DNA from: Alphaproteobacteria bacterium
GTDB lineage: Bacteria; Pseudomonadota; Alphaproteobacteria; Sphingomonadales; Sphingomonadaceae
Direction: 5' to 3'
NCBI GenBank assembly: GCA_018823325.1
Contig: JAHJIJ010000015.1
Span: 62,001 to 126,000 of the forward strand
DNA: 64,000 bases
The notes under the pieces were generated by a model, which saw nothing but the letters and a program-made list of their open reading frames with translations, was not told the DNA's origin and made no database searches. Position 1 is the first letter of the stretch. Each line of letters opens with the position of its first letter. Positions 11,856 through 48,585 of this stretch are shown here, piece after piece. The position numbers were made by a program, and so were the translations under genes.

Positions 11856-12019
11856 GTCTTTCTCCTAGCTTCGGGCCGCGCGGCGGCAGCACGTCTGCGG
11901 CAGCGGCTGGACTCACGGCGGCCACCGTCGGGCCGCGCATAGCGAGCCCGGAGCGGGGATGCCAGCCGATCCTGCCAATCGCCGCTTGACCCGACCGCCG
12001 CACGCGGGCATTAGAGCCT

Positions 12020-12040
12020 TAATGCGATTCATTGTCATTA
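12020..12040 (+). promoter_or_regulatory. Fur box
   Basis: AATGCGATTCATTGTCATTA (12021-12040) with a preceding T forms an imperfect palindrome in which 7 of 10 base pairs match around the centre. It closely resembles the classical Fur operator AATGATAATCATTATCATT. It lies about 186 bases before the gene at 12226 and is the natural operator for it and for the coupled reductase. This implies iron control; binding itself is inferred. Confidence 0.7.
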
Positions 12041-12096
12041 GCATATGAGATCGATCCGGACGCCGGATTTCGCGTGGGCCCTCCCCTGCGCGGCGC

Positions 12097-12137
12097 GAGC
12101 GCTCCCGGCCTGCAGGTGCAGCGGGCCGGGAGCGCTC
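12097..12137 (+). other. Strong stem-loop in the mRNA leader
   Basis: GAGCGCTCCCGGCC (12097-12110) pairs perfectly with GGCCGGGAGCGCTC (12124-12137), and the loop contains a further TGCA-GG-TGCA pairing. It lies downstream of the Fur box and upstream of ATG 12226, where no gene ends. It is therefore a leader structure rather than a terminator of a preceding gene. It lacks a U-run. Confidence 0.75.
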
Positions 12138-12225
12138 CATTTGACCCGGCGCCGAACACCGGGCGCGGCTTTTCGGGCCACTCGCGCGTTCAGGAAGATC
12201 ACTCGCCCGGCACAGGAGACCCGTG

Positions 12226-12684
12226 ATGTACGCCTTTCTCGACCAGCCCGTCATCATGCTGAGCCGGGGCGGCCAGATGATGGTCTGGGCCATGCGCCAC
12301 TGGACCCGCGCCGTGGGCGCCGGTCGCTGCCCGTGCGGCGATGTCGGCCCAGGGTTCCTCAAAGCGAAGCTGATGCCCGGCTTCCCGCATTTCCACATGA
12401 TGATGGCACTGCTCAACCGACATGCGCTGGACAAGCTGGCCTTTGCCGATATTGACTGCCCCCGCATCAGCGATGGCGAGGCGCTGCTGCTGAGCCTGAT
12501 CCGCATGGCCGGCGAGGACAGCCCGGAGCATCTGGCGAGCGCCGCCGCGCTGGTGATCCAGCCCACGGCAGTTCCGCCGCTGCTCATGGCACTCGATTCG
12601 CTGGCCGGCGCGCTTGCCCAGGCCGACCTGTGGCCTGCCCTTCCGATGTTCGACCCCGACAATGCGAGTTTTCCCCATGAATGA
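12226..12684 (+). CDS. Hypothetical protein coupled to ferredoxin reductase
   Basis: 152 residues from ATG 12226, preceded by CAGGAGA at good distance; GTG 12223 in the same frame is also possible. I do not recognise the family. Visible features are a Met-rich N-terminal third (QMMVWAMRHW, KLMPGFPHFHMMMALLN), a CPCG pair, two closely spaced His in FPHFH and a helical C-terminal half rich in Leu and Ala. It has no signal peptide. The last 8 bases overlap the start of the ferredoxin-NADP reductase, so the two are translated together. With the upstream Fur box this suggests a role in iron or redox handling, which is inference. Confidence 0.7.
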   Translation: MYAFLDQPVIMLSRGGQMMVWAMRHWTRAVGAGRCPCGDVGPGFLKAKLMPGFPHFHMMMALLNRHALDKLAFADIDCPRISDGEALLLSLIRMAGEDSPEHLASAAALVIQPTAVPPLLMALDSLAGALAQADLWPALPMFDPDNASFPHE

Positions 12685-29280: not shown

Positions 29281-29377
29281 GCACGCGGGGCAAGCCTCTC
29301 GCACTGCCCCTTCCCTCGGTCTCCGCTCACGAGACTAGGAGCAGCGCGCAAATGCGGCTTGCTCCCCGATCCAGTTA

Positions 29378-29391
29378 TGTTAGCGTTACCA
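29378..29391. promoter_or_regulatory. Possible LacI-family operator
   Basis: TGTTAGCGTTACCA is an imperfect palindrome with the central CG typical of LacI/GalR operators (5 of 7 pairs match). It lies 36 bases before the GH127 start. No LacI gene is in the window. Confidence 0.35.
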
Positions 29392-29426
29392 AAACGTGGC
29401 CTACAGGTCGATTTTGGGAGGATGAC

Positions 29427-31412
29427 GTGGCACAGACGCATAGCTGTTCCGGCGCGAAAGGGATTTCCACAACCCGTCGCAATTTGCTGACCTCTGCCGG
29501 ATCGGGCGCTTTTCTGAGCTGGTGCAGCGCGATCAGTACGCCCGCTTCGGCGCGTGCTCCGGCATCCGGCGCGGCGCTCGGCCCCCTCACGGTTGCCCCG
29601 CGCCTTCAACCCTTCGACCTCGCTGATGTTACCCTGCTGGACAGCCCCTTTCTCGCTGCCCAGCGTGGAACGGAAGCCTATCTCCTGTCGCTTTCGCCAG
29701 ACCGGATGCTCGCCAATTTCCGGACCAATGCCGGATTGACGCCCAAAGCGCCGGTTTATGGCGGCTGGGAGTCCGAGCCGACCTGGGCCGACATTCATTG
29801 CCACGGGCATACGCTGGGGCATTATCTCTCAGCCTGCGCGCTCATGTACCGGTCGACCAGCGACCGACGCTTCCGGCAGCGGATCGACTATATCGCAGGC
29901 GAACTGGCGGCCTGCCAGAAAGCGGCGGGCAGCGGGCTGGTCTGTGCTTTTCCTGCCGGCGCTGCACTCGTGGCCGCACACATCGGGGGCGAGAAGATCA
30001 CGGGCGTGCCCTGGTACACGCTGCACAAGATCTTCGCCGGCCTGCGCGATGCCTGGCAGCTCGGTGGCAGCGAAACTGCGCGCACCGTGCTGCTGCGCCT
30101 CGCCGACTGGGCCGTGGTCGCGACACAGAAGCTGAGTGATGCGGCGTTCGAGACCATGCTCGCGACAGAACATGGCGGCATGAACGAAGTGCTGGCGGAC
30201 CTCTACGTGCTGACCGGCAAGTCCGACTATCGCACACTCTCGGAGCGCTTCTCGCAAAAGGCGGTGATGGAGCCAGCTTCAAAAGCGCGCGACACGCTGG
30301 ACGGGATGCACGCCAACACGCAGGTGCCCAAGTTCGTGGGCTTCCAACGCGTCTACGAAATCAATGGCGACAAGAGCTATGGCGATGCGGCCGCCTTTTT
30401 CTGGCGAACGGTCGCGCGCACCCGGTCCTATGCCACGGGCGGCCATGGCGATGCCGAGTTCTTCTATCCGCCCGCCGATTTCGCGGCGCATGTCTTCTCC
30501 GCCAAGGGATCGGAGACGTGCGGCCAGCACAATATGCTCAAGCTCACGCGGTCGCTTTTCCTGCATGATCCGCAGGCCGAGCTGGCCGACTTTTATGAAC
30601 GTGCGCTCTACAACGGCATTCTCGCCTCACAGGACCCGGAGACGGGACTAGTCACATATTTTCAGGGCGCGCGCCCGGGCTACATGAAGCTCTACTGCAC
30701 GCCCGAGGACTCCTTCTGGTGCTGCACCGGAACGGGCATGGAGAACCACGCCAAATACCGCGATTCCATTTATTTCCGCGAAGAGGACGCGCTCTACGTC
30801 AACCTGTTCATCCCCTCCTCTGTCCGCTGGCAGGAGAAGGACGCGGTGCTGACGCAAACCACGCGCTTTCCCGAGGATCCGTCCACGATGCTGCGCTGGA
30901 GCCTCCCGCGACCGACCGCCGCGACGCTCAAACTGCGCCATCCCCGCTGGAGCCGTTCAGCCGCCGTGCTGCTGAACGGCGCGCCCATTGCCCTTTCCAG
31001 CACGCCGGGCAGCTACATCGAACTCGCACGCACATGGCTGGATGGCGACGTCATAACGTTAGATCTGGAGATGCAGCTGAGTGCCGAAGGATCGCCTGCC
31101 GCACCGGACATCATTGCTTTCACTTACGGACCGATCGTGCTCGCAGGCGCGCTCGGAACGGAAGGGCTGGCGCCAGGCGCCGATGTCGTCGTCAACGAGC
31201 GCCTTTACGGGACGTATAACGACATGCCCTTCTCACCCCCTCAGCTGGCTGGCGATGCCCGGAACATCGTCTCCCGGCTACGACCCGGTGCGGGGCCGCT
31301 GGAATTTCTCATCGATGCCGAGGATGGACGACCAGTCCGCCTGATCCCTTATTACCAGATCCGGCACGAACGCTATGCGACTTACTGGAAATTGAAGCCC
31401 AAGTCCGCTTGA
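29427..31412 (+). CDS. GH127 family glycosidase, Tat-exported
   Basis: 661 residues from GTG 29427, chosen because GGGAGG lies six bases before it and the product then begins with a Tat signal (STTRRNLL near residues 14-21, then a hydrophobic run to ASA). The body is the GH127/DUF1680 fold, whose characterised members are beta-L-arabinofuranosidases. The Zn-thiolate catalytic set is present: Glu363 and Cys365 in SETCGQHN, and Cys432-Cys433 in FWCCTGTGMEN. These correspond to the Glu/Cys/Cys/Cys zinc site with the Cys nucleophile. It is an orphan, with no transporter or other glycosidase beside it. Confidence 0.9.
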   Translation: MAQTHSCSGAKGISTTRRNLLTSAGSGAFLSWCSAISTPASARAPASGAALGPLTVAPRLQPFDLADVTLLDSPFLAAQRGTEAYLLSLSPDRMLANFRTNAGLTPKAPVYGGWESEPTWADIHCHGHTLGHYLSACALMYRSTSDRRFRQRIDYIAGELAACQKAAGSGLVCAFPAGAALVAAHIGGEKITGVPWYTLHKIFAGLRDAWQLGGSETARTVLLRLADWAVVATQKLSDAAFETMLATEHGGMNEVLADLYVLTGKSDYRTLSERFSQKAVMEPASKARDTLDGMHANTQVPKFVGFQRVYEINGDKSYGDAAAFFWRTVARTRSYATGGHGDAEFFYPPADFAAHVFSAKGSETCGQHNMLKLTRSLFLHDPQAELADFYERALYNGILASQDPETGLVTYFQGARPGYMKLYCTPEDSFWCCTGTGMENHAKYRDSIYFREEDALYVNLFIPSSVRWQEKDAVLTQTTRFPEDPSTMLRWSLPRPTAATLKLRHPRWSRSAAVLLNGAPIALSSTPGSYIELARTWLDGDVITLDLEMQLSAEGSPAAPDIIAFTYGPIVLAGALGTEGLAPGADVVVNERLYGTYNDMPFSPPQLAGDARNIVSRLRPGAGPLEFLIDAEDGRPVRLIPYYQIRHERYATYWKLKPKSA

Positions 31413-31429: not shown

Positions 31430-32776
31430 TCACGGCGCGACGAGGCGATAGCCGACTGCCGGTTCGTTGATGATCAGCGCGGGATGGGCGGGGTCGTCCT
31501 CCAGCTTCTGACGCAGGGCGCGGATCGCAACGCGCAGATAATCGATCTGCGTCTCCTGCGCTGCCCCCCAGACGGCGCGAAGGAGATGCCCGTGCGTCAG
31601 CACCCGGCCCGCATGCCGGGCCAGTTCGGCCAGCACGGCATATTCCTTCGGCGTCAAGTGAACCTCAGCTCCGTCGCGCTCAACCATGCGCCGAAAAAGG
31701 TCGATTCTCAGGGCGCCGAACTGGAGCGGTGCCTGATCCGAACCGGGCGCAAGATCGAGCAGATTGTCGATGTAGCGATCCAGCCGGGACGCCTCGGCCC
31801 CCACGGCATCGATCAGCGCCTTGTCGCCAGTCCCGGCCCGCCGGAGGGCTCGGGCGGCCGCCGAAATCGCATGAAGCCGGGGTTTCACATCCTCGCCGAT
31901 GGAAGCCAGCAGAACGGCTCGCAGCGCATCGCGTTCGCGCATCTTGGCGGCCTGCCGTGCTTCGCTTTCCAGCTTTGCGCGCTCCAGCGCGAGCGCCGCC
32001 TGATCGAGCAGATTGTCGAGCAACGGCAGTCTGTCCTCCGACACCGGCGGTGCGCCATCGGCGCGGGCAAGGCCCACCGCTGCCATGACTGTTCGTTCTG
32101 ATGAAATCGCGCGGAAGTGCCATTCTGCTATTCCCACGCGCGGCAGGCCCCGCCCTGCCGGCTCGCCCGTCGTCAGCGCGAGCGTCGCCGCCGCGAGATC
32201 ATTGGGCTGGAGAGGCAAGCCCAGGGCCGGATGGGTTGCCACAATCTCCGGCTGCTCCGCGCCGGTCGCGAACACCGCATGACAATCGAACAGACCGGCC
32301 AGTTCGCGAACCGTCTGCCCGGCGATTTCCTGCTCGCCGGTGCATGACAGGAGCGAACGGGAGAAGCCGGCAATGGTTGCATTGCGCGCCGCATGAGCAG
32401 CGGTGAGCCGGGCCTGATCCCGCAAGGAGCCCGCCAGATGGCTGGTGACGGCCGCGACCAGAAACAGCACGATCACCGTCACGATGTCCGCCGGGCTGGC
32501 AATGAGGAAAGTGCGGTAGGGCGCGGTGAAATAGTAATTATAGGCCATGGTGGACGTCACCGCCGCGACCAGCGCCGGCCAGAGCCCACCATAAACGGCC
32601 ATGCCGATCACCGGAGGCAGATAGAGCAGCACGACAGGGGTGTTGCCCCAGCGGGGCGCGAGACCGAGTCCGATCAGCGTCACGGTCGCCACCATCAGCA
32701 GCGCACCCGCATAAAGCCCAAATCGCAGCGCGGGTGATGTTGCGCGATCGTTGAACGCGAGGGTCTTCATCTGCAT
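31430..32776 (-). CDS. KdpD-KdpE chimera: membrane one-component regulator
   Basis: 448 residues from ATG 32776 (the frame is open to 32875, and ATG 32854 is also possible). Four transmembrane helices lie at about residues 19-40, 47-65, 66-82 and 95-115, a DUF4118-type KdpD membrane unit. A GAF-like domain follows at about 135-265, then a KdpD-like DHp helical hairpin at 277-342. In that hairpin the usual SHDLRTPL reads IGEDVKPRL, so the phosphorylated His is replaced by Glu. There is no HATPase domain and no receiver domain. Residues 351-448 are instead a KdpE-type winged helix ([20 protein letters not shown] marks the region, ending EPAVGYRL). It is divergent from kup, with 113 bases between starts, and probably controls it. 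Confidence 0.88.
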
Positions 32777-32842
32777 GGCCAAAGATTGCACCGGGCCGCG
32801 ATAGCCGTCGAGCAAAACCACGCAGCCCCGCCCGGCGCGCCA

Positions 32843-32848
32843 TACAAT
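32843..32848 (+). promoter_or_regulatory. kup: Candidate -10 element for kup
   Basis: TACAAT, 42 bases before ATG 32890, matches the -10 consensus at 5 of 6 bases. No good -35 hexamer precedes it, which fits an activator-dependent promoter. The 113-base gap also holds AAAGATT (32781-32787) and its complement AATCTTT (32857-32863), possible distant half-sites for the divergent regulator. Confidence 0.35.
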
Positions 32849-32889
32849 CCACATGGAATCTTTATGCGGTTCCACGCCATGTCGCGCCC

Positions 32890-34806
32890 ATGCAAACCAC
32901 CATCAACACGCCGCCGGTCGTCCCCACCGGCACAGCCCCAGCCGGTCCAAAGGAACGCCTGCCGGTCCTGATGCTCGGTGCGCTCGGTGTCGTCTATGGC
33001 GACATCGGCACCTCCCCCCTCTATGCCATGAAGGAGAGCTTCATCGGGCCGCACCCGATGGCGGTGGACGGACTCCACGTCTTCGGCGTTCTCTCGCTGA
33101 TCTTCTGGTCACTGATGCTGATCGTGACGGTGAAATATGTCTTCGTCGCCATGCGGGCGGACAACAAGGGAGAAGGCGGCTCCTTTGCGTTGCTCTCACT
33201 GATCTCGCGCCACATTGAAGACCATCGGCGCAAGGCCGTACTCATCATGCTGGGCGTGCTGGCGACATGCCTGTTCTACGGCGATGCGATGATCACGCCG
33301 GCCATCTCCGTGCTCTCCGCCGTAGAAGGATTGACGGTGGTGGAGGCGCGGCTGGAGCCGCTGGTGGTTCCGATCTCGGTCGTCATTCTCATCGGCCTCT
33401 TTCTGGTGCAGGCGCGGGGCACGGCGCGAGTGGGCGCCCTCTTCGGGCCGGTCGTGCTTATCTATATGGCAGTTCTCGCCACGCTGGGCATCAGCAACAT
33501 CCTCCAGCAACCCGAAATATTGGGCGCCCTCAGTCCGATGTGGGCGGCACGCTTCTTCATCGCCGATCCCGGCACGGCCTTCCTCGCGATGGGCTCGGTC
33601 TTTCTCGCCGTGACCGGAGCGGAAACGCTTTATGCCGACATGGGGCATTTCGGGCGCAAGGCCGTGGGCTTCTCCTGGCTTGGCATCGCCTATCCCTGCC
33701 TGATGCTCAATTATCTGGGCCAAGGCGCGCTGCTGCTCGGCAATCCCGAACTGGTCAGCAATCCCTTCTATCTCATGGCTCCGGAATGGGCGCGGCTGCC
33801 GCTTGTTGTCATTGCGACGGCGGCGACCATCATTGCGAGCCAGGCGGTGATTTCCGGCGCTTTCTCGATCACGCATCAGGCCATTCAGCTCGGCTTCCTG
33901 CCGCGCATGCGCACGCTGCACACCAGCGAGAAGGCTTCGGGCCAGATCTACATTCCCTCGGTCAACTGGGCGCTGCTCGTGATGGTCATCGTTCTGGTGC
34001 TGGGCTTTGGCGAATCCAGCAAGCTTGCCTCGGCCTATGGCATCGCGGTCACGGGCACGATGCTGATCACGACGCTGATGCTGGCCTTCCTGCTCTTCCA
34101 GGTGTGGCGCTGGAACCGCCTGCTGGCCTCCGGTGCAATCGGCCTCTTCCTCGTCGTTGACGGCACCTATTTCGCCTCCAACATCACCAAGGTGGTGGAC
34201 GGCGGCTGGTTCCCGCTCGTGGTCGCCGCCGTGCTGTTCACCGTGCTGACGACCTGGTCCACCGGACGCCGGCTGATGCGCGATCGGCTGGCGGAATCTG
34301 CCATGGCGCTGTCCCTGTTCATCAAGTCGGCAGCCAGCACGACGCCAAGAACGCGCGGCACCTCCGTCTTCCTCTCGGCCTCGGCGGATGGGGTGCCGTC
34401 TGCGCTGCTGCATAATCTCAAGCACAATCAGGTGCTTCACCAGCGCGTTTTGATCCTCACCGTTTCGATCGAGGATGTGCCCTCGATCGGCGAGGACGCG
34501 CGCATCGAGGCGCATGACGCGACGCAGGGTTTCTACAGGATCATCCTGCGCTACGGCTTCATGGACGAGGTGGACATCCCCCGCGACCTCGCGCGGATCT
34601 CCTCGATCGGCCAGCCCTTCGACATGATGAGCACGAGCTTCTTCCTCGGCCGACAGAAGCTCATCGCTGCCAAGGATCATCCCGGCATGGCGCTCTGGCG
34701 CGAACGCCTGTTCGCCTGGATGATGCGAAGCTCCGAAAGCGCGATGGAGTCCTTCAAGCTGCCGCCCAACCGCGTCGTTGAGCTCGGGAGCCAGCTGGAG
34801 ATCTAG
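32890..34806 (+). CDS. kup: Potassium uptake protein Kup
   Basis: 638 residues of the KUP/HAK/KT family, a proton-coupled low-to-medium-affinity K+ importer. The [19 protein letters not shown] motif is at helix 1, followed by about 12 helices. Family stretches [21 protein letters not shown]-like ([20 protein letters not shown]) and [12 protein letters not shown] are present. The C-terminal cytosolic domain ends near residue 638, the usual length. The start is ATG 32890. It is divergent from the chimeric KdpD/KdpE-like regulator. Confidence 0.95.
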
Positions 34807-42095: not shown

Positions 42096-44114
42096 TCAGC
42101 GCAGGGAGGCGAGTTCAGCGGGCTTAGCCGTCTGCGCCATCTCGGCCACATCCGCCGTTGCACCGCCACGGAGCAGCGTGCCACAGGCGGGAGCCTCAGC
42201 GCGTTCAGGATCGACGAAGCCGAAGATCGCTCCCAGGTCCGGCATCATCATCGAGAAGCCGAACAGACGCTGCGGGCGGAACAACGCAACCGGCTCGCGC
42301 ACGACCACAGGATCGGCCAGCGTGCCACCGATAAGCAGCGGCGCAGGGCGGCCGAACCAGGAGCGATGCTTGCCATCCGCTTCCAGCCGCAGATCGAGCC
42401 GCTCGCCGCGCAGATCGATCTGGCCGCGCCCGCTCAGCACATACCCGTCGGTATCGATCAGGATGGGGTCGGCGATCGCCAGGCCATCCTGCACGGAGAA
42501 GGCGAGAAGCCCGCAATTGAGAGCGGTCAGATCATCAGCGCGCGCGTCGCGGCCAAACATGGCAGTGCGCAGGAAAGCCATGTCCAGTTCAGAAGCGCTG
42601 GCCCGCTGCATCCCCACGCTGCCCGCCGGGAGGACAAGCGCGATGCGGCCATTGGCATTGCCGATCGTCTCACGCAGCGTCTCGCCCCGCCCGCTGAGTT
42701 GGATGCGACCGCGCGCAAGAGCGGTGGATTGCTGCGGCGCGATGCCCCAGCCCGCGAGCAGCCGCCCCATCGGCGTAGGCGACAGGCGGATGTCATAGCG
42801 GGCAAGCGCCGGCCCGCTGCGCGCGTCGATATAGATGTCCGACGAGATGAAGCCGCCGGCAAGGTCGATACTGGCAGGCGAGAGCATCAGGCGCCCGTCG
42901 AGCAGAGCAAGGCGCATGGCGAGGTGGGACGGACTGAGCGGCGCGGCTGCGGGGCGCAAGCCCTCGATCTTCTCGGCTGTATAATCGATCACCGCATCGA
43001 AACTGCGCAACGCCTCCGCCGACAGGACTGCGTCGGGGATAAGGCGTGCGACGGGGCGGGTGGCCGGATCGTCCTCCCCCTCACCCAGATCATCAGCGCG
43101 CAAGCCAAGCAGCGCCATGCCATCACCGACATGAAGCGCTTGCGAGGCGAGCTTCGCCACGACACGCGGGCGCTCGCCGCGCTGATCGAGCGTGAGCGTG
43201 CCGGAGAGGTCCGTCTCACCGATCTGTCCGGAGATATGGCTGAAATGCCAGCCGCCACGCCGCTGGCCAAGCCGGGCGTTCAAAGCGAAGGCCGGTGCGA
43301 CCGAAAGATCGATGCTGGCCAGCGCAGCCAGTGCCGCCAGATCCGGGCCACGGGCGGATGCATTGAGATCTGCCCCGGCCAGCCGGAACGGGCCTTCGCT
43401 GCTTCCTTCCAGGCGGATGTCCAGCGCCTCGGCGCCCGCACCCAGCGCGAAGCGAAATGGCTGCCCCTCGGCGGACGCGGCGTGACCGCTGAGGCGGAAA
43501 TCCTCCTCCGCCACCTGCGCGCGCCCGGTGACGCGCACAGCGCCCGGCCCGCTGCCGACAATCTTCAACCAGCCCTCGATCCGCTCGCGCGGATCATGAT
43601 AGCGCAGCAGCAGGTCGTCGGCATCGATGCGCTGGACCATAGCGGGATCGAACAAGGCACCGGCCTTGCCGACTCGCCAGTTCGCCGCGCCGTCCGCCGC
43701 ATCACGCTGGAGATCGAGCGTGCCGCCGTGCAGGCCCAAGGTGCGTGGGCCATAATGACCGATCAGCAGATCGAAGGTGGAAAAGCGCGCAGTGATGGCA
43801 CGGACTGCAAGCAGATCCGGCGTTTGCGCCCAGGGCGCGTTGGCGATGCGCACATCGTCTGCGGAGAGATGCAGCGAAAGAGGCGTGACCAGCAGGCGAA
43901 TCCCGCCATCGATGTTGACCGCGCGCCCGAGCGCCTCACTGGCGCGGCGCTCGATCGGCTCGCGCAAAAGCTGCGCGCCGCCGGCCGCAAGCCCCGCCCA
44001 GCCGAGCAATGGCAACGCGAGCGCAGCCCAAAGCAGCGGGTGAAGGCGCCGAGTTTTCCGGATGTTCGGCCTATGGTCCGTGCCGTTACCGGGCGGGATC
44101 GGGGGGAGCGTCAT
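42096..44114 (-). CDS. AsmA family outer-membrane biogenesis protein
   Basis: 672 residues of the AsmA/TamB-like superfamily. One N-terminal transmembrane helix (about residues 26-48) follows a basic Pro-rich start. The N-terminal AsmA domain comes next (EALGRAVNIDGGIRLLVTPLSLHLSADDVRIANAPWA region). A long beta-rich segment and the C-terminal AsmA-like unit (TALNCGLLAFSVQDGLAIADPILIDTDGYVLSGRGQIDLRGE region) complete it. These proteins form grooves carrying phospholipid between the two membranes. It stands alone. Confidence 0.88.
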   Translation of the reverse strand: MTLPPIPPGNGTDHRPNIRKTRRLHPLLWAALALPLLGWAGLAAGGAQLLREPIERRASEALGRAVNIDGGIRLLVTPLSLHLSADDVRIANAPWAQTPDLLAVRAITARFSTFDLLIGHYGPRTLGLHGGTLDLQRDAADGAANWRVGKAGALFDPAMVQRIDADDLLLRYHDPRERIEGWLKIVGSGPGAVRVTGRAQVAEEDFRLSGHAASAEGQPFRFALGAGAEALDIRLEGSSEGPFRLAGADLNASARGPDLAALAALASIDLSVAPAFALNARLGQRRGGWHFSHISGQIGETDLSGTLTLDQRGERPRVVAKLASQALHVGDGMALLGLRADDLGEGEDDPATRPVARLIPDAVLSAEALRSFDAVIDYTAEKIEGLRPAAAPLSPSHLAMRLALLDGRLMLSPASIDLAGGFISSDIYIDARSGPALARYDIRLSPTPMGRLLAGWGIAPQQSTALARGRIQLSGRGETLRETIGNANGRIALVLPAGSVGMQRASASELDMAFLRTAMFGRDARADDLTALNCGLLAFSVQDGLAIADPILIDTDGYVLSGRGQIDLRGERLDLRLEADGKHRSWFGRPAPLLIGGTLADPVVVREPVALFRPQRLFGFSMMMPDLGAIFGFVDPERAEAPACGTLLRGGATADVAEMAQTAKPAELASLR

Positions 44115-44339
44115 GGCCGGACCACAACGCTGCTGAGCCCCGACACCAGTGCCGGAAGCTGGTCAATGCACCCACCGTTCATGCGGCGCGGATAGAGCCG
44201 GCAAGCTGAACAACGGCTGAGCATGATGTTGGAAGGCTGCTATCAGCCGCCTCCCCACGACATTGCGGCGTACCGGATGCTCGCCCTCACAAATCGGAGC
44301 CTCTGGAAAACCGGAACGCTTCAGCGGAACGAAGTCTGC

Positions 44340-45131
44340 TTATTTGGCCCCGCCAAAGGAGACGGTGCCATCCGGATTGATCACGTCAAGCCGATGATCG
44401 CACACATATTCCGGGATGCGATACTCGTGGTTGCGCTTGTACTCCCAGGTGAATTTATAAGGCTCTTCGAGATATTCCGGATCCTCAACCGAAACATCGA
44501 GCCGCAGTCTGTCCGGACCGATCAGCCGATAGTGCTCGATGACCGTCATCGCATCGCTATGGGGAATGTCATAGAATCTAACGCTTTGCTGCACACCGCG
44601 CGTCTTGACGATCAAGGTATCACCTTCCCAATGAGCAGAAGAGAACCCGTAGTAAGAGGGCGCAAGATCGTCCGGCGCAGGGAAAGGCGCGTCTAGATAG
44701 ATGCGGCGTGTCTGCATGAACAGCTCGGCGAGCACCGTAATCTGGCCAGGATTCTGCAGAATCTGGATCGGATAAATAGCCTCCATGATGCCAGGTGTGC
44801 CTTCTGGAAGGCATTGTGTGCTGGCGTCGACAAGTGGCGTACCGGCCTTGAGCAGCGCCTGCCGCTTGTCCAGCAGTGCCTTCCATTCGCTGGCATAGGG
44901 CTCTTTAAGGTTCGGACCCTCACCAGGAGGTGGAGTCAGCTGTGTTTCGTCGCCATCGCCATAGGGGAAGGGATCGCGTTCCCATACGCCCGTTATGTCG
45001 GGTTCCGCTTGGACACCGGCAGTTTTTGCCGGCTGGGCCGGATCAGAAGAAGCAGCGATCGCCACCTGATTTGCGCCGCTCAACGCCAAGGCGGAGCAAA
45101 GGGCAAGGCTTGCGAGTTCTTTGAAGTTCAT
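44340..45131 (-). CDS. Exported hypothetical protein beside DUF6152
   Basis: 263 residues with a signal peptide ending AIA-ASS near residue 27. The mature protein begins with a Pro-rich segment and PDITGVWERDPFPYG, then helical and mixed regions (ASEWKALLDKRQALLKAGTPLVDASTQCLPEGTPGIM) and a C-terminal part with SSAHWEGDTLIVKTRG and a final VCDHRLDVINPDG. Proteins with this GVW...DTLIVKT pattern occur beside DUF6152 genes and TonB receptors in sphingomonads; their role is unknown. Codon use is AT-richer than the rest of the window. Confidence 0.7.
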   Translation of the reverse strand: MNFKELASLALCSALALSGANQVAIAASSDPAQPAKTAGVQAEPDITGVWERDPFPYGDGDETQLTPPPGEGPNLKEPYASEWKALLDKRQALLKAGTPLVDASTQCLPEGTPGIMEAIYPIQILQNPGQITVLAELFMQTRRIYLDAPFPAPDDLAPSYYGFSSAHWEGDTLIVKTRGVQQSVRFYDIPHSDAMTVIEHYRLIGPDRLRLDVSVEDPEYLEEPYKFTWEYKRNHEYRIPEYVCDHRLDVINPDGTVSFGGAK

Positions 45132-45234
45132 CAGACCCCTCGATCCTCTTTATCGTTTCAGGAAATTCATAGTCATTTAAGCAGTAAGACAATGGCTGCA
45201 GATTGCTGATCAGGCTTGCAGCCGGGAATGCGTG

Positions 45235-45600
45235 TCACCATGCATCCAGCTTCTTGCCGTTGCCCAGAGTCACGACCGTGAGTGCTCCGCCCGGCTTCCC
45301 ATTTCTCAGCGGGAAGAAGGAGATGTCGACCTTGTCCCCGGCTTTGAGCGTATTAAACTTCCAGCCAGCTTGGGTCATGAGCGACGGGCTGTTGCACTCC
45401 AGGGCAAACGTCTCCCCACCGCTTTTTACCACCAGGAAGACATGCGGGTTCGCCCACTGAAATCGCACGACAGTCACGCCCTTGAGTTCAGTAGCCTTGG
45501 TCTGATCGAACATCGCAAATGAATGGTGCGCCAGCGCAGGCAGACTGATTGCCAGGAGACCTGCGGAAAGAACAGCGGCGCATGTTTTGAGTCTATTCAT
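45235..45600 (-). CDS. DUF6152 exported protein
   Basis: 121 residues with a signal peptide ending ALA-HHSF at residue 24. The mature protein starts HHSFAMFD and contains TVVRFQWANPHVFLVV, the DUF6152 pattern, with paired N-terminal His that might bind metal. It lies 103 bases upstream of the secreted protein at 44340 on the same strand, likely one transcript. Confidence 0.85.
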   Translation of the reverse strand: MNRLKTCAAVLSAGLLAISLPALAHHSFAMFDQTKATELKGVTVVRFQWANPHVFLVVKSGGETFALECNSPSLMTQAGWKFNTLKAGDKVDISFFPLRNGKPGGALTVVTLGNGKKLDAW

Positions 45601-46218
45601 TCAGAAACTCCTGTCTTCGACAAAATCGCGCCGAAGTTCGTCAAGTGTGTGATCGATCGCATTCCAGAGTCGTTCGTCGCCAGAGTCGTTATTCGGTCGA
45701 CCGGGCGCGGTTCATGTTTGCGAGAACCCGGCAGCAACGATGCATTTGGAAATTTAGTGCCGTGCCAGACGGGCCGGAAGGGCGAAGCGGTCGCGAAACC
45801 GTTAATCGCCGCGCACATCGCTCGAGCCGCAGCCAGGTTTGGCGAATTAGTGCCAAAATCCCTGATATTTCCTCCCAAATTCTTGCAAGGAGGCACCTAA
45901 ATTATGAGGTAACGGGCACGCGCGCGCATGACGTTACCTGCTACCCAGGAACGTTTCCGCACGGTTTCAATCCGCCCCCTGATATTTACTTCTGCGTAAC
46001 AAACTGCGTCGATTGGGCTGCAGCGTTTCTTCTAAGCAACCATGCGCTGCGATTCTGACCTAGGCGAAATCTGAAAATTCGCGGCCAATTTTGGCTCGAC
46101 CGAGCAGATTCGAAACAGGAATTCCGGTGTTGCAACCGGACGTTCCACAAGCGGCCGGAGAGCCTCTGATCGGTGCGATCGGTCATAACAATGCATACAC
46201 AGGGAAATGGGGGGTTTT
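45601..46218. other. Long divergent promoter region, no gene
   Basis: This 618-base gap lies between the DUF6152 gene and the TonB receptor. Open frames in it lack any family resemblance. It contains one inverted repeat, AGGTAACG (45907-45914) and CGTTACCT (45932-45939), 17 bases apart, which could be a regulator site. I saw no Fur box. Confidence 0.55.
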
Positions 46219-48585
46219 ATGACATACTTGAAAGCTTTGCCGATACAGCTTGATGGCGCCGCTAGCCCAGCACCAGCTGCGCGTCTAGCGTCTCTTGGAG
46301 CGCTCCTCCTGGCTGGAACAGCTTTTGCCTTCCCGGTAAGCGCTGCATATGCGCAAGACAATAGCTCCAGAAAAAGCGAGTATCAGGAGCCCGTCAACAC
46401 CGATGAGATCATCGTGTCGGCCCGCCGCAGGGATGAGAAGCTGGTCGATGTTCCCGCCTCCATCACAGCCTACTCCTCCGACTATCTGAAAACCCAGAAC
46501 ATTCAGAATTTCACAGACTATGCCACCCGCATTCCTAACCTGAGCTTTCAATATGGTCTGAGCGGAAACCTGCTGTGGGGCGGCAGCCGTGAAACAGCGA
46601 TCCGCGGTGTCGCAGGTACCGGGACGACGGCTTACTACATTAATGACACGCCGGTGCCTTCATCGGTTAGCCCGCTTACCCTCAACCTTGATCGCATCGA
46701 AGTGCTTAAAGGCCCTCAGGGGACGTTGTTCGGCGCAAGTTCCATGGGCGGCAATCTGCGTTTCATCACGCGCCAGGCTTCATTGACCGAGAATTCCGGC
46801 ACGGTAGAAGTACAGGGGGGCGGAACAAAGGGCGGTGGCTTTGATTTCGATGGGAATGGCCAGGCCAATTTCGTTCTGGTGCCTGACCGCATCGGGCTTG
46901 ATGTCGCCTTAGGCTACACTCATGATTCAGGCTTCATTACGAGGCGGTTTCCTGATGCCTCCGGCCAGTTGATCTCCAAAAAGGGACAAGGGCGCAATGA
47001 CATCGTCACAGGGTCGGTGACGTTGCGGATGAAACTGACCGACACGCTGGAAGCAAGCATCAACGGAATAGGGCAGACAAGCCACCTGCATGGCTTCCCA
47101 GCCGCATATTTGCCGTTGCCGGGATACGAGCCGGTTTCCTACATTGTGGATCGCGACCGCGATGTGCAGGAGTATTCGAAAGACCGCTGGGGCATCGGCT
47201 CATTTGTTCTGAACTATGCGGCGGATGGCGTTTCTATCGTCTCCTCCACCAGCTATTTTGCCCGCCGGATCAAGGAGCGGGAAGACAATACAGAGGGAAC
47301 CAACCTGTATTTTGCCGAGGTCGAGCCAGATATCGACTTAGGAAATCCGGCGGTTTATCAGGATACAATCGCCACGAACCGGCTTTTCACGCACGAGGAT
47401 CGCCTTTCATTCGACGAAGGGACTATTCTGCCCCGCTTGTCGGGCATGGTTGGTGTATATTACCAGCATGAGTTCGTGAGCACGAACATGCCCCCGGTCT
47501 CGATCCCGGAACTGACAGCTGCAGGAATCGAACCAGACCATCTCGGCAGCACTGATTTGGTCAATCATAATGACGATATCGCTCTGTTCAGTGAGCTATA
47601 TTACGAGGTCCTGCCCAAGCTGACCCTCACAGTGGGACTGCGGAAATACTGGATTCGCCAGAAGACCGATGCGTCAGTCGATACTGGGTATCTCTTCGCG
47701 CCTGAAGGAATTTCCGTTAATCCCGAAATCAAGAACAGTGAATCAGGCCTAATCCCCAAGGCCGTGATTTCCTACAAAATCGGTGATCAGGGCAATATCT
47801 ACGCATCTGCGTCAAAGGGATTCCGGGTAGGGGGCAGCGAGCAGCTTCTGCCGGATATATGCTCGGCCGATCTTGAGAACCTGGGCATCGATGCGGAACA
47901 GTTGAGACAGTATAAATCCGATACCTTGTGGAGCTACGAAGTTGGCGTCAAAGGTCGCCTGGCGAATGGCCGCCTCAGCGCCTCAGTTGCGGCGTTCCAG
48001 ATTGACTGGTCCGACATCCAGCAAAGCATATTCCTGCCTACTTGCACTCTACCGGTAACGACAAATGCAGGCAAAGCGCGCATTCGCGGGGGAGAGTTCG
48101 AGTTATCGGGACGCCCCTTCGCCGGAGTTCCGTTCTCGATTCAATTGGGTCTGGGCTATACGGATGGCGTACTCCAGGAGCCGGGATTGCTTCCGCAGCC
48201 TGCAAACAGCCCGCTTCCTCTGGTGCCGAAATGGACCGGTACAATCTCGGGCTATTATGAAGTGCCGCTTAGCGATGCCGTCCAGTTGTTCATGGCGGCG
48301 GACTATAGCTACACCGGATCCGTGAAAGTCTCGGACGGTGACAGTGGATTTTACACCCGGAAACCGATCAACATGGTCAACGGCAACATTGGCGTGAGCT
48401 TCGGAAGCTCCCAGCTCATGTTCTATGTCAAAAACCTGCTCGATAAGCGGTTGAATTTCGGCAATCAGCCTTCAGCTGGCTTTGAGAGACAGGAATTGCT
48501 CGAGGATGGCAGTTATCAGCGTTTGCCTCGCGGCGTTGTCAGCCAGCCACGTCAGATGGGCGTGCAATATCAGCTGAATTTTTAA
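46219..48585 (+). CDS. TonB-dependent outer-membrane receptor
   Basis: 788 residues from ATG 46219, with GGGGGG four bases before it; ATG 46207 adds four residues. A long signal peptide ends near AYAQ-DN at residue 50. The plug domain starts with TDEIIVSARRRDEKLVDVPASITAYS, and LDRIEVLKGPQGTLFGASSMGGNLRFITRQ is its TonB-plug signature. The beta-barrel follows and ends with a terminal Phe (YQLNF). The ligand is unknown. G+C is markedly lower than elsewhere (28 of 60 bases on the line from 47281). Confidence 0.9.
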   Translation: MTYLKALPIQLDGAASPAPAARLASLGALLLAGTAFAFPVSAAYAQDNSSRKSEYQEPVNTDEIIVSARRRDEKLVDVPASITAYSSDYLKTQNIQNFTDYATRIPNLSFQYGLSGNLLWGGSRETAIRGVAGTGTTAYYINDTPVPSSVSPLTLNLDRIEVLKGPQGTLFGASSMGGNLRFITRQASLTENSGTVEVQGGGTKGGGFDFDGNGQANFVLVPDRIGLDVALGYTHDSGFITRRFPDASGQLISKKGQGRNDIVTGSVTLRMKLTDTLEASINGIGQTSHLHGFPAAYLPLPGYEPVSYIVDRDRDVQEYSKDRWGIGSFVLNYAADGVSIVSSTSYFARRIKEREDNTEGTNLYFAEVEPDIDLGNPAVYQDTIATNRLFTHEDRLSFDEGTILPRLSGMVGVYYQHEFVSTNMPPVSIPELTAAGIEPDHLGSTDLVNHNDDIALFSELYYEVLPKLTLTVGLRKYWIRQKTDASVDTGYLFAPEGISVNPEIKNSESGLIPKAVISYKIGDQGNIYASASKGFRVGGSEQLLPDICSADLENLGIDAEQLRQYKSDTLWSYEVGVKGRLANGRLSASVAAFQIDWSDIQQSIFLPTCTLPVTTNAGKARIRGGEFELSGRPFAGVPFSIQLGLGYTDGVLQEPGLLPQPANSPLPLVPKWTGTISGYYEVPLSDAVQLFMAADYSYTGSVKVSDGDSGFYTRKPINMVNGNIGVSFGSSQLMFYVKNLLDKRLNFGNQPSAGFERQELLEDGSYQRLPRGVVSQPRQMGVQYQLNF

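Follow-up and report, generated by a model that had tools for sequence, protein, structure and literature searches.

The question raised by this locus is what a protein assembled from parts of KdpD and KdpE does beside a potassium transporter gene when the phosphorelay between sensor and regulator is missing. The locus lies in a stretch of 64,000 nucleotides, here called the window, from an Alphaproteobacteria bacterium (assembly GCA_018823325.1, contig JAHJIJ010000015.1, positions 62,001 to 126,000), and consists of a gene in which kdpD and kdpE parts are fused, referred to as the fusion gene, and a divergent kup gene, referred to as kup2. The answer proposed here, in which we have good confidence, is that the fusion is a membrane-anchored, phosphorylation-free regulator, derived from a single collapse of kdpD and kdpE, that binds a 21-bp operator and controls kup2. 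The control is probably activation of kup2 at low K+; both the signal and the direction are what we infer. The two genes and the parts of the fusion protein are:

31430..32776, reverse strand: coding sequence of the fusion regulator, 448 amino acids plus stop, with its ATG at 32776
32399..32713, reverse strand: DUF4118, the KdpD-type four-helix membrane unit, residues 22-126 (Pfam about 1.6e-26)
31979..32332, reverse strand: GAF-like domain, residues 149-266 (weak Pfam GAF_3; fold match to the KdpD GAF structures 4y2f/4qpr)
31748..31906, reverse strand: dimerisation and histidine phosphotransfer (DHp, HisKA-like) hairpin, residues 291-343, with model helices at 297-314 and 319-341
31892..31894, reverse strand: Glu295, replacing the phospho-accepting His (from the alignment)
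31436..31726, reverse strand: KdpE-type winged helix, residues 351-447 (Pfam and structure matches)
32890..34806, forward strand: kup2, a Kup K+ transporter of 638 amino acids (Pfam K_trans 2.4e-187), divergent neighbour and proposed target

The fusion gene is a single uninterrupted frame on the reverse strand, extending over 31430-32875 at its longest. In the Pfam scan of the window protein, DUF4118 (1.6e-26) and Trans_reg_C (2.4e-21) were matched above the cut-off, HisKA and GAF_3 gave only scores below it, and HATPase_c, Response_reg and PF02702 were all unmatched. The KdpD-type order, DUF4118 and GAF followed by HisKA, is present, its GAF and HisKA parts being weak by Pfam. The NCBIfam KdpD model covers residues 57-376 and the KdpE model residues 382-479 (numbered from a GTG at 32875), both matches lying far under the whole-protein cut-offs, as expected for partial proteins. 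Sequence searches gave E. coli KdpE (3zq7, 1.1e-19) as the closest solved structure for the C-terminus and matched the membrane part to the KdpD structure entry 2ksf (5.3e-7). In an AlphaFold (AF2) model built from three sequences, the winged-helix and GAF regions were the better modelled ones (pLDDT mostly 70-90), and the top Foldseek matches were KdpE on DNA (4kfc and 4kny). The E. coli KdpD GAF (4y2f) appeared at rank 28 with a TM-score of 0.77 by target length, outranked by the GAF of a different protein at rank 24. Two arginines, R415 and R422, are invariant in the alignment of fusions and, as we read the alignment, appear to correspond to R193 and R200 of KdpE (PMC3264566; this and the other articles are cited from excerpts).

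The loss of the phosphorelay is not peculiar to the window. Among 23 distinct intact fusion loci, window included, DUF4118 and Trans_reg_C were matched by Pfam in 23/23, which places transmembrane segments and a DNA-binding domain in one chain throughout, the topology being taken from the family. HATPase_c and Response_reg are absent from the nine Pfam families matched across these 23 fusions, and a His-less HisKA trace reaches an E-value of 0.01 in five of them. The position of the phospho-accepting His is occupied by Glu in 12, Gln in five, Asp in three and Thr, Ala and Arg in one each, and never by His; the H-box of relatives' KdpDs reads SHD or GHD in the five aligned and in six further KdpDs. 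Much of this had been claimed by the sequence-only reading from the window itself. Its single frame joining DUF4118, a GAF-like domain, a DHp hairpin and a KdpE-type winged helix is real, with all four parts matched (GAF and HisKA weakly by Pfam), and its derivation of both halves from KdpD/KdpE agrees with the NCBIfam models, the structure matches and the trees described below. The Glu that it noted at the H-box (IGED for SHD) was borne out against the SHD/GHD of relatives, and the HATPase and receiver domains that it found missing are unmatched in all 23 loci. A reading error hiding either domain, which it had named as a possible refutation, is implausible because 23 intact loci agree in lacking both.

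The fusions have a single origin. In a quick tree of the sensor part (43 rows) all 23 form one clade with an SH-like approximate likelihood ratio test (SH-aLRT) support of 100, and in a quick tree of the winged helix (40 rows) they again form one clade, with a support of 98. Adjacent kdpD and kdpE would have collapsed once into one frame, in an ancestor within the family, joining the KdpD sensor (DUF4118, GAF and DHp) directly to the KdpE winged helix. Arrangements resembling steps towards this state occur in living genomes. In G237, a complete kdpFABCDE diverges from kup2; between its kdpF and the KdpE-type sites there seems to be a small frame resembling a membrane protein (L145, about 11950-12420). 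In G003, which lacks kdpA, kup2 is divergent from a 509-residue KdpD frame, with HATPase present and PF02702 missing, and an intact KdpE, and the gap between kup2 and kdpD carries a KdpE-type repeat. G003 is a plausible intermediate arrangement, which may illustrate the step and does not prove it. Another order, a same-strand kup followed by a short kdpD and kdpE, was seen in L139 (G075), L140 (G127), L141 (G257), L142 (G241) and L146 (G035); the kup differs from kup2, KdpA is unmatched in these five genomes, and PF02702 is unmatched in the two short KdpDs scanned. Pfam scanning of these arrangements was confined to the KdpD-KdpE pairs of G003, G075 and G237 and to the KdpD of G035. The same-strand order represents a second route tying KdpDE to Kup.

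The samples drawn comprised 298 genomes of the family, 246 of the order, 367 of the class and 349 of the phylum. The full-length fusion was found in 20 of the family genomes, in 13 of the order draw (two of them new, G429 and G438), in a single genome of the class draw, the window's own, and in three of the phylum draw, all from the window's family. All 23 loci thus come from one family, which we take to be Sphingomonadaceae as broadly defined by GTDB; two relatives are known by name, Erythrobacter colymbi and a metagenome-assembled genome of Porphyrobacter. The distribution is patchy: the family draw included five more genomes of the window's genus, and the fusion is in none of them. In plasmids, five records match the sensor part only, none covering 80% of the query.

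The constant feature of these loci is the partner gene. A divergent Kup gene adjoins the fusion in 23/23, a neighbourhood that the sequence-only reading had asked to be tested, and none of five other window genes was found in the 21 loci searched (about 6-7 kb on each side, less in L057 and L058). On the other flank of the window's fusion gene, 29352-31412 encodes a GH127 beta-L-arabinofuranosidase-type enzyme, with no counterpart seen in the 21 orthologous loci searched. The fusion-linked Kups form one clade with a support of 95 (54 rows; some long branches are flagged, including the linked Kup of G204). Exactly two Kups occur in 22/22 fusion genomes, and 38 other genomes have one (30 genomes) or two (eight). 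Because the linked Kups form a clade and fusion genomes carry two, Kup2 is an extra transporter co-inherited with its regulator. Absence of Trk was considered as a further trait of fusion genomes and rejected: TrkH is unmatched in 20/20 of them and also in 33/38 others, which makes its absence a trait of the family at large.

The gap between the two genes carries an operator-like site and candidate promoter elements:

32846..32866, reverse strand: 21-bp operator-like site CATAAAGATTCCATGTGGATT, a tandem 11-bp repeat that reads CTTTATG towards kup
32807..32812, reverse strand: CTCGAC, candidate -35 of the fusion gene in 23/23 loci (putative promoter)
32783..32788, reverse strand: CAATCT, candidate -10 of the fusion gene, its CA invariant in 23 (putative promoter)
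32878..32882, forward strand: CATGT, candidate -10 of kup, with the form CAnnT in many loci (putative promoter)

The site has the repeat structure CATnnnGATTc-CATnnnGATT and occurs once only in the window. Between 17 and 21 of its 21 letters match in 23/23 gaps, 12 of them perfectly. Allowing at most three mismatches, the site was found in 25/298 genomes, namely in the gap of 19/20 fusion genomes and in 6/278 without the fusion, and a control with the reversed pattern gave 0/298. The remaining fusion genome, G200 (17 of 21), misses the three-mismatch limit, and in G242 and G274 a second, weaker site accompanies the one in the gap. The match in G281 falls within coding sequence resembling kdpE and seems fortuitous. 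A related site, CATTAAGATTCCCTGTGGATT/AAT (CGTTAAG in L103), lies near position 1501 in L106, L102 and L103. This is one conserved spot in one genus (G242, G150 and G201), where the weak site adjoins a gene of SPFH/paraslipin type and a frame resembling CitE, both named by eye; two of these three genomes are without the fusion.

The same kind of repeat precedes kdpA in some relatives. In regions of 1.2-1.4 kb upstream of kdpA in 19 relatives, a search that may miss some sites, CATAAAG occurs in tandem at exactly 11 bp in eight regions with at most two mismatches and in nine with at most three, always on the same strand. Pairs at other spacings from 7 to 25 were absent at two mismatches and were seen in zero to two regions each at three. 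The half-sites of E. coli KdpE are TTTATA-5 bp-TTTACA (PMC3264566), a layout seen here as TTTATG, and the orientation of the site relative to kup is the same as that relative to kdp. By these comparisons, the 21-bp site is built like KdpE operators, as an 11-bp tandem repeat with a CATAAAG half-site. A downstream CCACAT was considered as a third half-site and rejected, its spacings of 28 and 17 to the two half-sites not being multiples of 11.

The gap itself depends on where the fusion gene starts. The ATG at 32776 was chosen because the stretch upstream of it shifts frame among loci and is interrupted by a stop in L049; the gene starts there, and the distance of 113 bases to kup given by the sequence-only reading holds with this start. 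The GTG at 32875 is rejected, the upstream stretch being conserved DNA rather than protein, and the apparently conserved peptide 'HKDSMWI/IKIPCGL' is such DNA read in two frames. The ATG lies 36-40 nt past CTCGAC in 22/23 loci, L154 being the exception.

The geometry of the gap suggests how the regulator may act. The in-frame ATG of kup lies 22-24 nt from the site in 23/23 loci; of the intervening letters, C12 and A13 alone do not vary among the 22 loci aligned, and the CAnnT-like element starts 11 nt past the site, about 12 nt ahead of the ATG. On the side of the fusion gene, the invariant CA follows CTCGAC by 24 nt and precedes the ATG by 12-14 nt; on the kup side of the gap, there is no CTCGAC -35. 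Ten kdp regions have the tandem pair at four mismatches or fewer, and in 8/10 of these YAnnT stands exactly 11 nt past the next half-site position (+43 or +44), as TATCT, TAGCT, TAACT, CACAT or CATGT; L060 has TAGCG and L065 none. These spacings are consistent with a kup2 promoter that is activator-dependent, its -35 replaced by the operator as at kdp. Since the phospho-accepting His, the ATPase and the receiver are gone, the signal would reach the DNA as a conformational change passed along the helices. The DHp hairpin would act as the dimeriser, and two winged helices would bind the tandem operator. This operator, occupying the -35 position 11 nt before the CAnnT -10, would allow direct activation of kup2, presumably at low K+, much as PhoB-type activators do. 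CTCGAC stands at one of four classes of distance from the site (12, 22-24, 33 and 45-47), with at least six changes on the tree; a simulation that scanned periods of 10 to 11.5 gave p of about 0.015 for the phasing of these four classes. This hints, suggestively only, that the bound protein may also face its own promoter.

The opposite sign of control, in which the fusion bound at high K+ represses kup2 and its release at low K+ derepresses the gene, is the alternative that survives best, and we consider it unlikely. Only 22-24 nt separate the end of the site from the start of kup, and the site overlies the position expected for RNA polymerase; the nearest precedent, Rsp of Neisseria, has been described as repressing pilA (PMC10269533). 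Yet a CAnnT -10 without a CTCGAC -35 on the kup side, where the regulator's own promoter has both, is what an activator-dependent promoter is expected to look like. The recurrence of the half-site-N11-YAnnT spacing at kdp also argues against repression, KdpE being a known activator of kdp.

A second alternative concerns the signal. In E. coli KdpD, external K+ acts on the autokinase and internal K+ on the phosphatase (PMC5936718). Neither activity can exist in the fusion; K+ would be its signal on the grounds of its family and its neighbour. Turgor, which the sequence-only reading had offered beside potassium, is unlikely as the inherited signal, having been ruled out as the primary stimulus of E. 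coli KdpD (PMC5936718). The regulator might instead answer mainly to Kup2, through flux or occupancy, in the way that CadC answers to LysP (PMC5936718), rather than to K+ read by DUF4118. The strict pairing of two membrane proteins would fit such co-sensing, but promoter sharing explains the pairing equally, and conservation of DUF4118 is good, with a mean pairwise identity of 0.59. We think such co-sensing by Kup2 improbable.

That the gene is a decaying relic, a fusion made by deletion whose product is idle, is a thought prompted by the loss of every catalytic part, and it is very hard to maintain. The 23 frames are intact, the site is near-invariant and the Kup partner constant. The other fusions are 50-69% identical to the window protein, the winged helix has the highest mean pairwise identity among the domains (0.71; a short linker has 0.72), and the ratio of nonsynonymous to synonymous substitution rates (dN/dS) is about 0.11-0.21 in the seven pairs computed, for which 11 of the 23 sequences were used. 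These ratios indicate purifying selection.

KdpA occurs in 77/298 family genomes and in 1/20 fusion genomes (about five expected by proportion, relatedness ignored). The sole bearer, G149 (L075, contig 25), has a KdpD that is 25% identical to the fusion's sensor, and its distant Kdp system was perhaps acquired separately. A role as an accessory of an intact KdpDE, as decoy or dominant negative at kdp operators, is therefore hardly credible despite the KdpE-like site and winged helix: KdpA is unmatched in 19/20 fusion genomes, G149 being the distant exception, the window's own genome is without PF02702, only the fusion itself was found at E <=1e-20 in 20/20 (five candidates per genome scored), and no fusion genome with an orthologous KdpDE was seen.

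Several observations weigh against a membrane-anchored activator of kup2 derived from KdpDE. Overall confidence in the AF2 model is low (mean pLDDT 67.2), and much of the membrane part falls below 50. The candidate promoter elements of both genes come from conservation alone. In both trees the KdpD of G003 branches apart from the fusions. A weak form of the site occurs in six genomes that lack the fusion, and in 11/19 kdp regions the tandem CATAAAG was not found at two mismatches or fewer. On the kup strand, the upstream half-site CACATG has lost the TT reported to be invariant in KdpE half-sites (PMC3264566). Finally, in Sinorhizobium fredii no binding of KdpE to the kup promoter was seen (PMC9239096), so a link between KdpE and kup is not general.

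A bolder form of the activator proposal may be put forward tentatively. The locus may be a self-contained two-gene K+ cassette that moves between many genera, or is repeatedly kept by them, without its neighbours, in which the helical transmission inherited from the kinase, free of ATP and phosphate, drives operator binding from the membrane. The operator would be fixed relative to the kup promoter and in helical phase with that of the regulator, so that one membrane-bound dimer could set both genes, and Kup2 might be a co-sensor.

Elsewhere in the window, the block 44001-48000 has a G+C content of 0.557 compared with 0.62-0.69 in the other 4-kb blocks. Two frames in this low-G+C stretch were named by eye, one (46207-48585) resembling a TonB receptor and the other (44340-45131) a secreted protein.

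No description of a KdpD-KdpE fusion or of its control of kup was found in the open PMC literature, searched mostly through titles and the starts of abstracts, and one may exist elsewhere. One-component systems have been described as older than two-component ones (PMC5936718), and some transmembrane transcription regulators have been suggested to derive from two-component systems (PMC10269533). The fusion offers a well-sampled case of this reverse step, in that living genomes display its origin, its operator type and its partner gene as well as arrangements resembling intermediates. It would isolate signal transmission through DHp helices in a protein that has no phosphate step to confuse the answer, and the 21-bp site with a reporter could serve to test whether the KdpD membrane unit senses K+.

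Compared with KdpD/KdpE, the fusion shares the DUF4118, GAF, DHp and winged helix of that family as well as the KdpE-type half-site and 11-bp spacing. It differs in being one polypeptide without PF02702, HATPase, receiver or phospho-accepting His, and in having kup2 rather than kdpFABC as its neighbour and proposed target. Like the Bacteroides hybrid histidine kinases, it is a membrane protein that unites parts derived from a kinase with a DNA-binding domain (PMC10269533); in contrast to those hybrids, which in the excerpt retain one or more core two-component domains, it keeps only a His-less HisKA trace. Its winged helix is membrane-anchored as in ToxR/CadC, which act without phosphorylation (PMC5936718). 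The sequence-only reading had set the fusion apart from ToxR/CadC by the place of the wing, and the orientation does differ as it stated: ToxR/CadC have an N-terminal cytoplasmic winged helix, a transmembrane helix and a C-terminal periplasmic sensor, whereas the wing of the fusion is C-terminal, after the four-helix unit and GAF. The design is nevertheless not unprecedented. Rsp of Neisseria gonorrhoeae consists of the PilS membrane receptor and the PilR DNA-binding domain and represses pilA (PMC10269533), and it is likewise a two-component pair collapsed to a membrane one-component regulator with a C-terminal DNA-binding domain. The sensor and DNA-binding families of the two proteins differ, and while a title cited in that article speaks of remnants, the fusion has a single origin and retains its partner gene and site at all 23 loci. 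On the present comparisons, the fusion appears to be a further example of the Rsp kind, derived from a different two-component pair.

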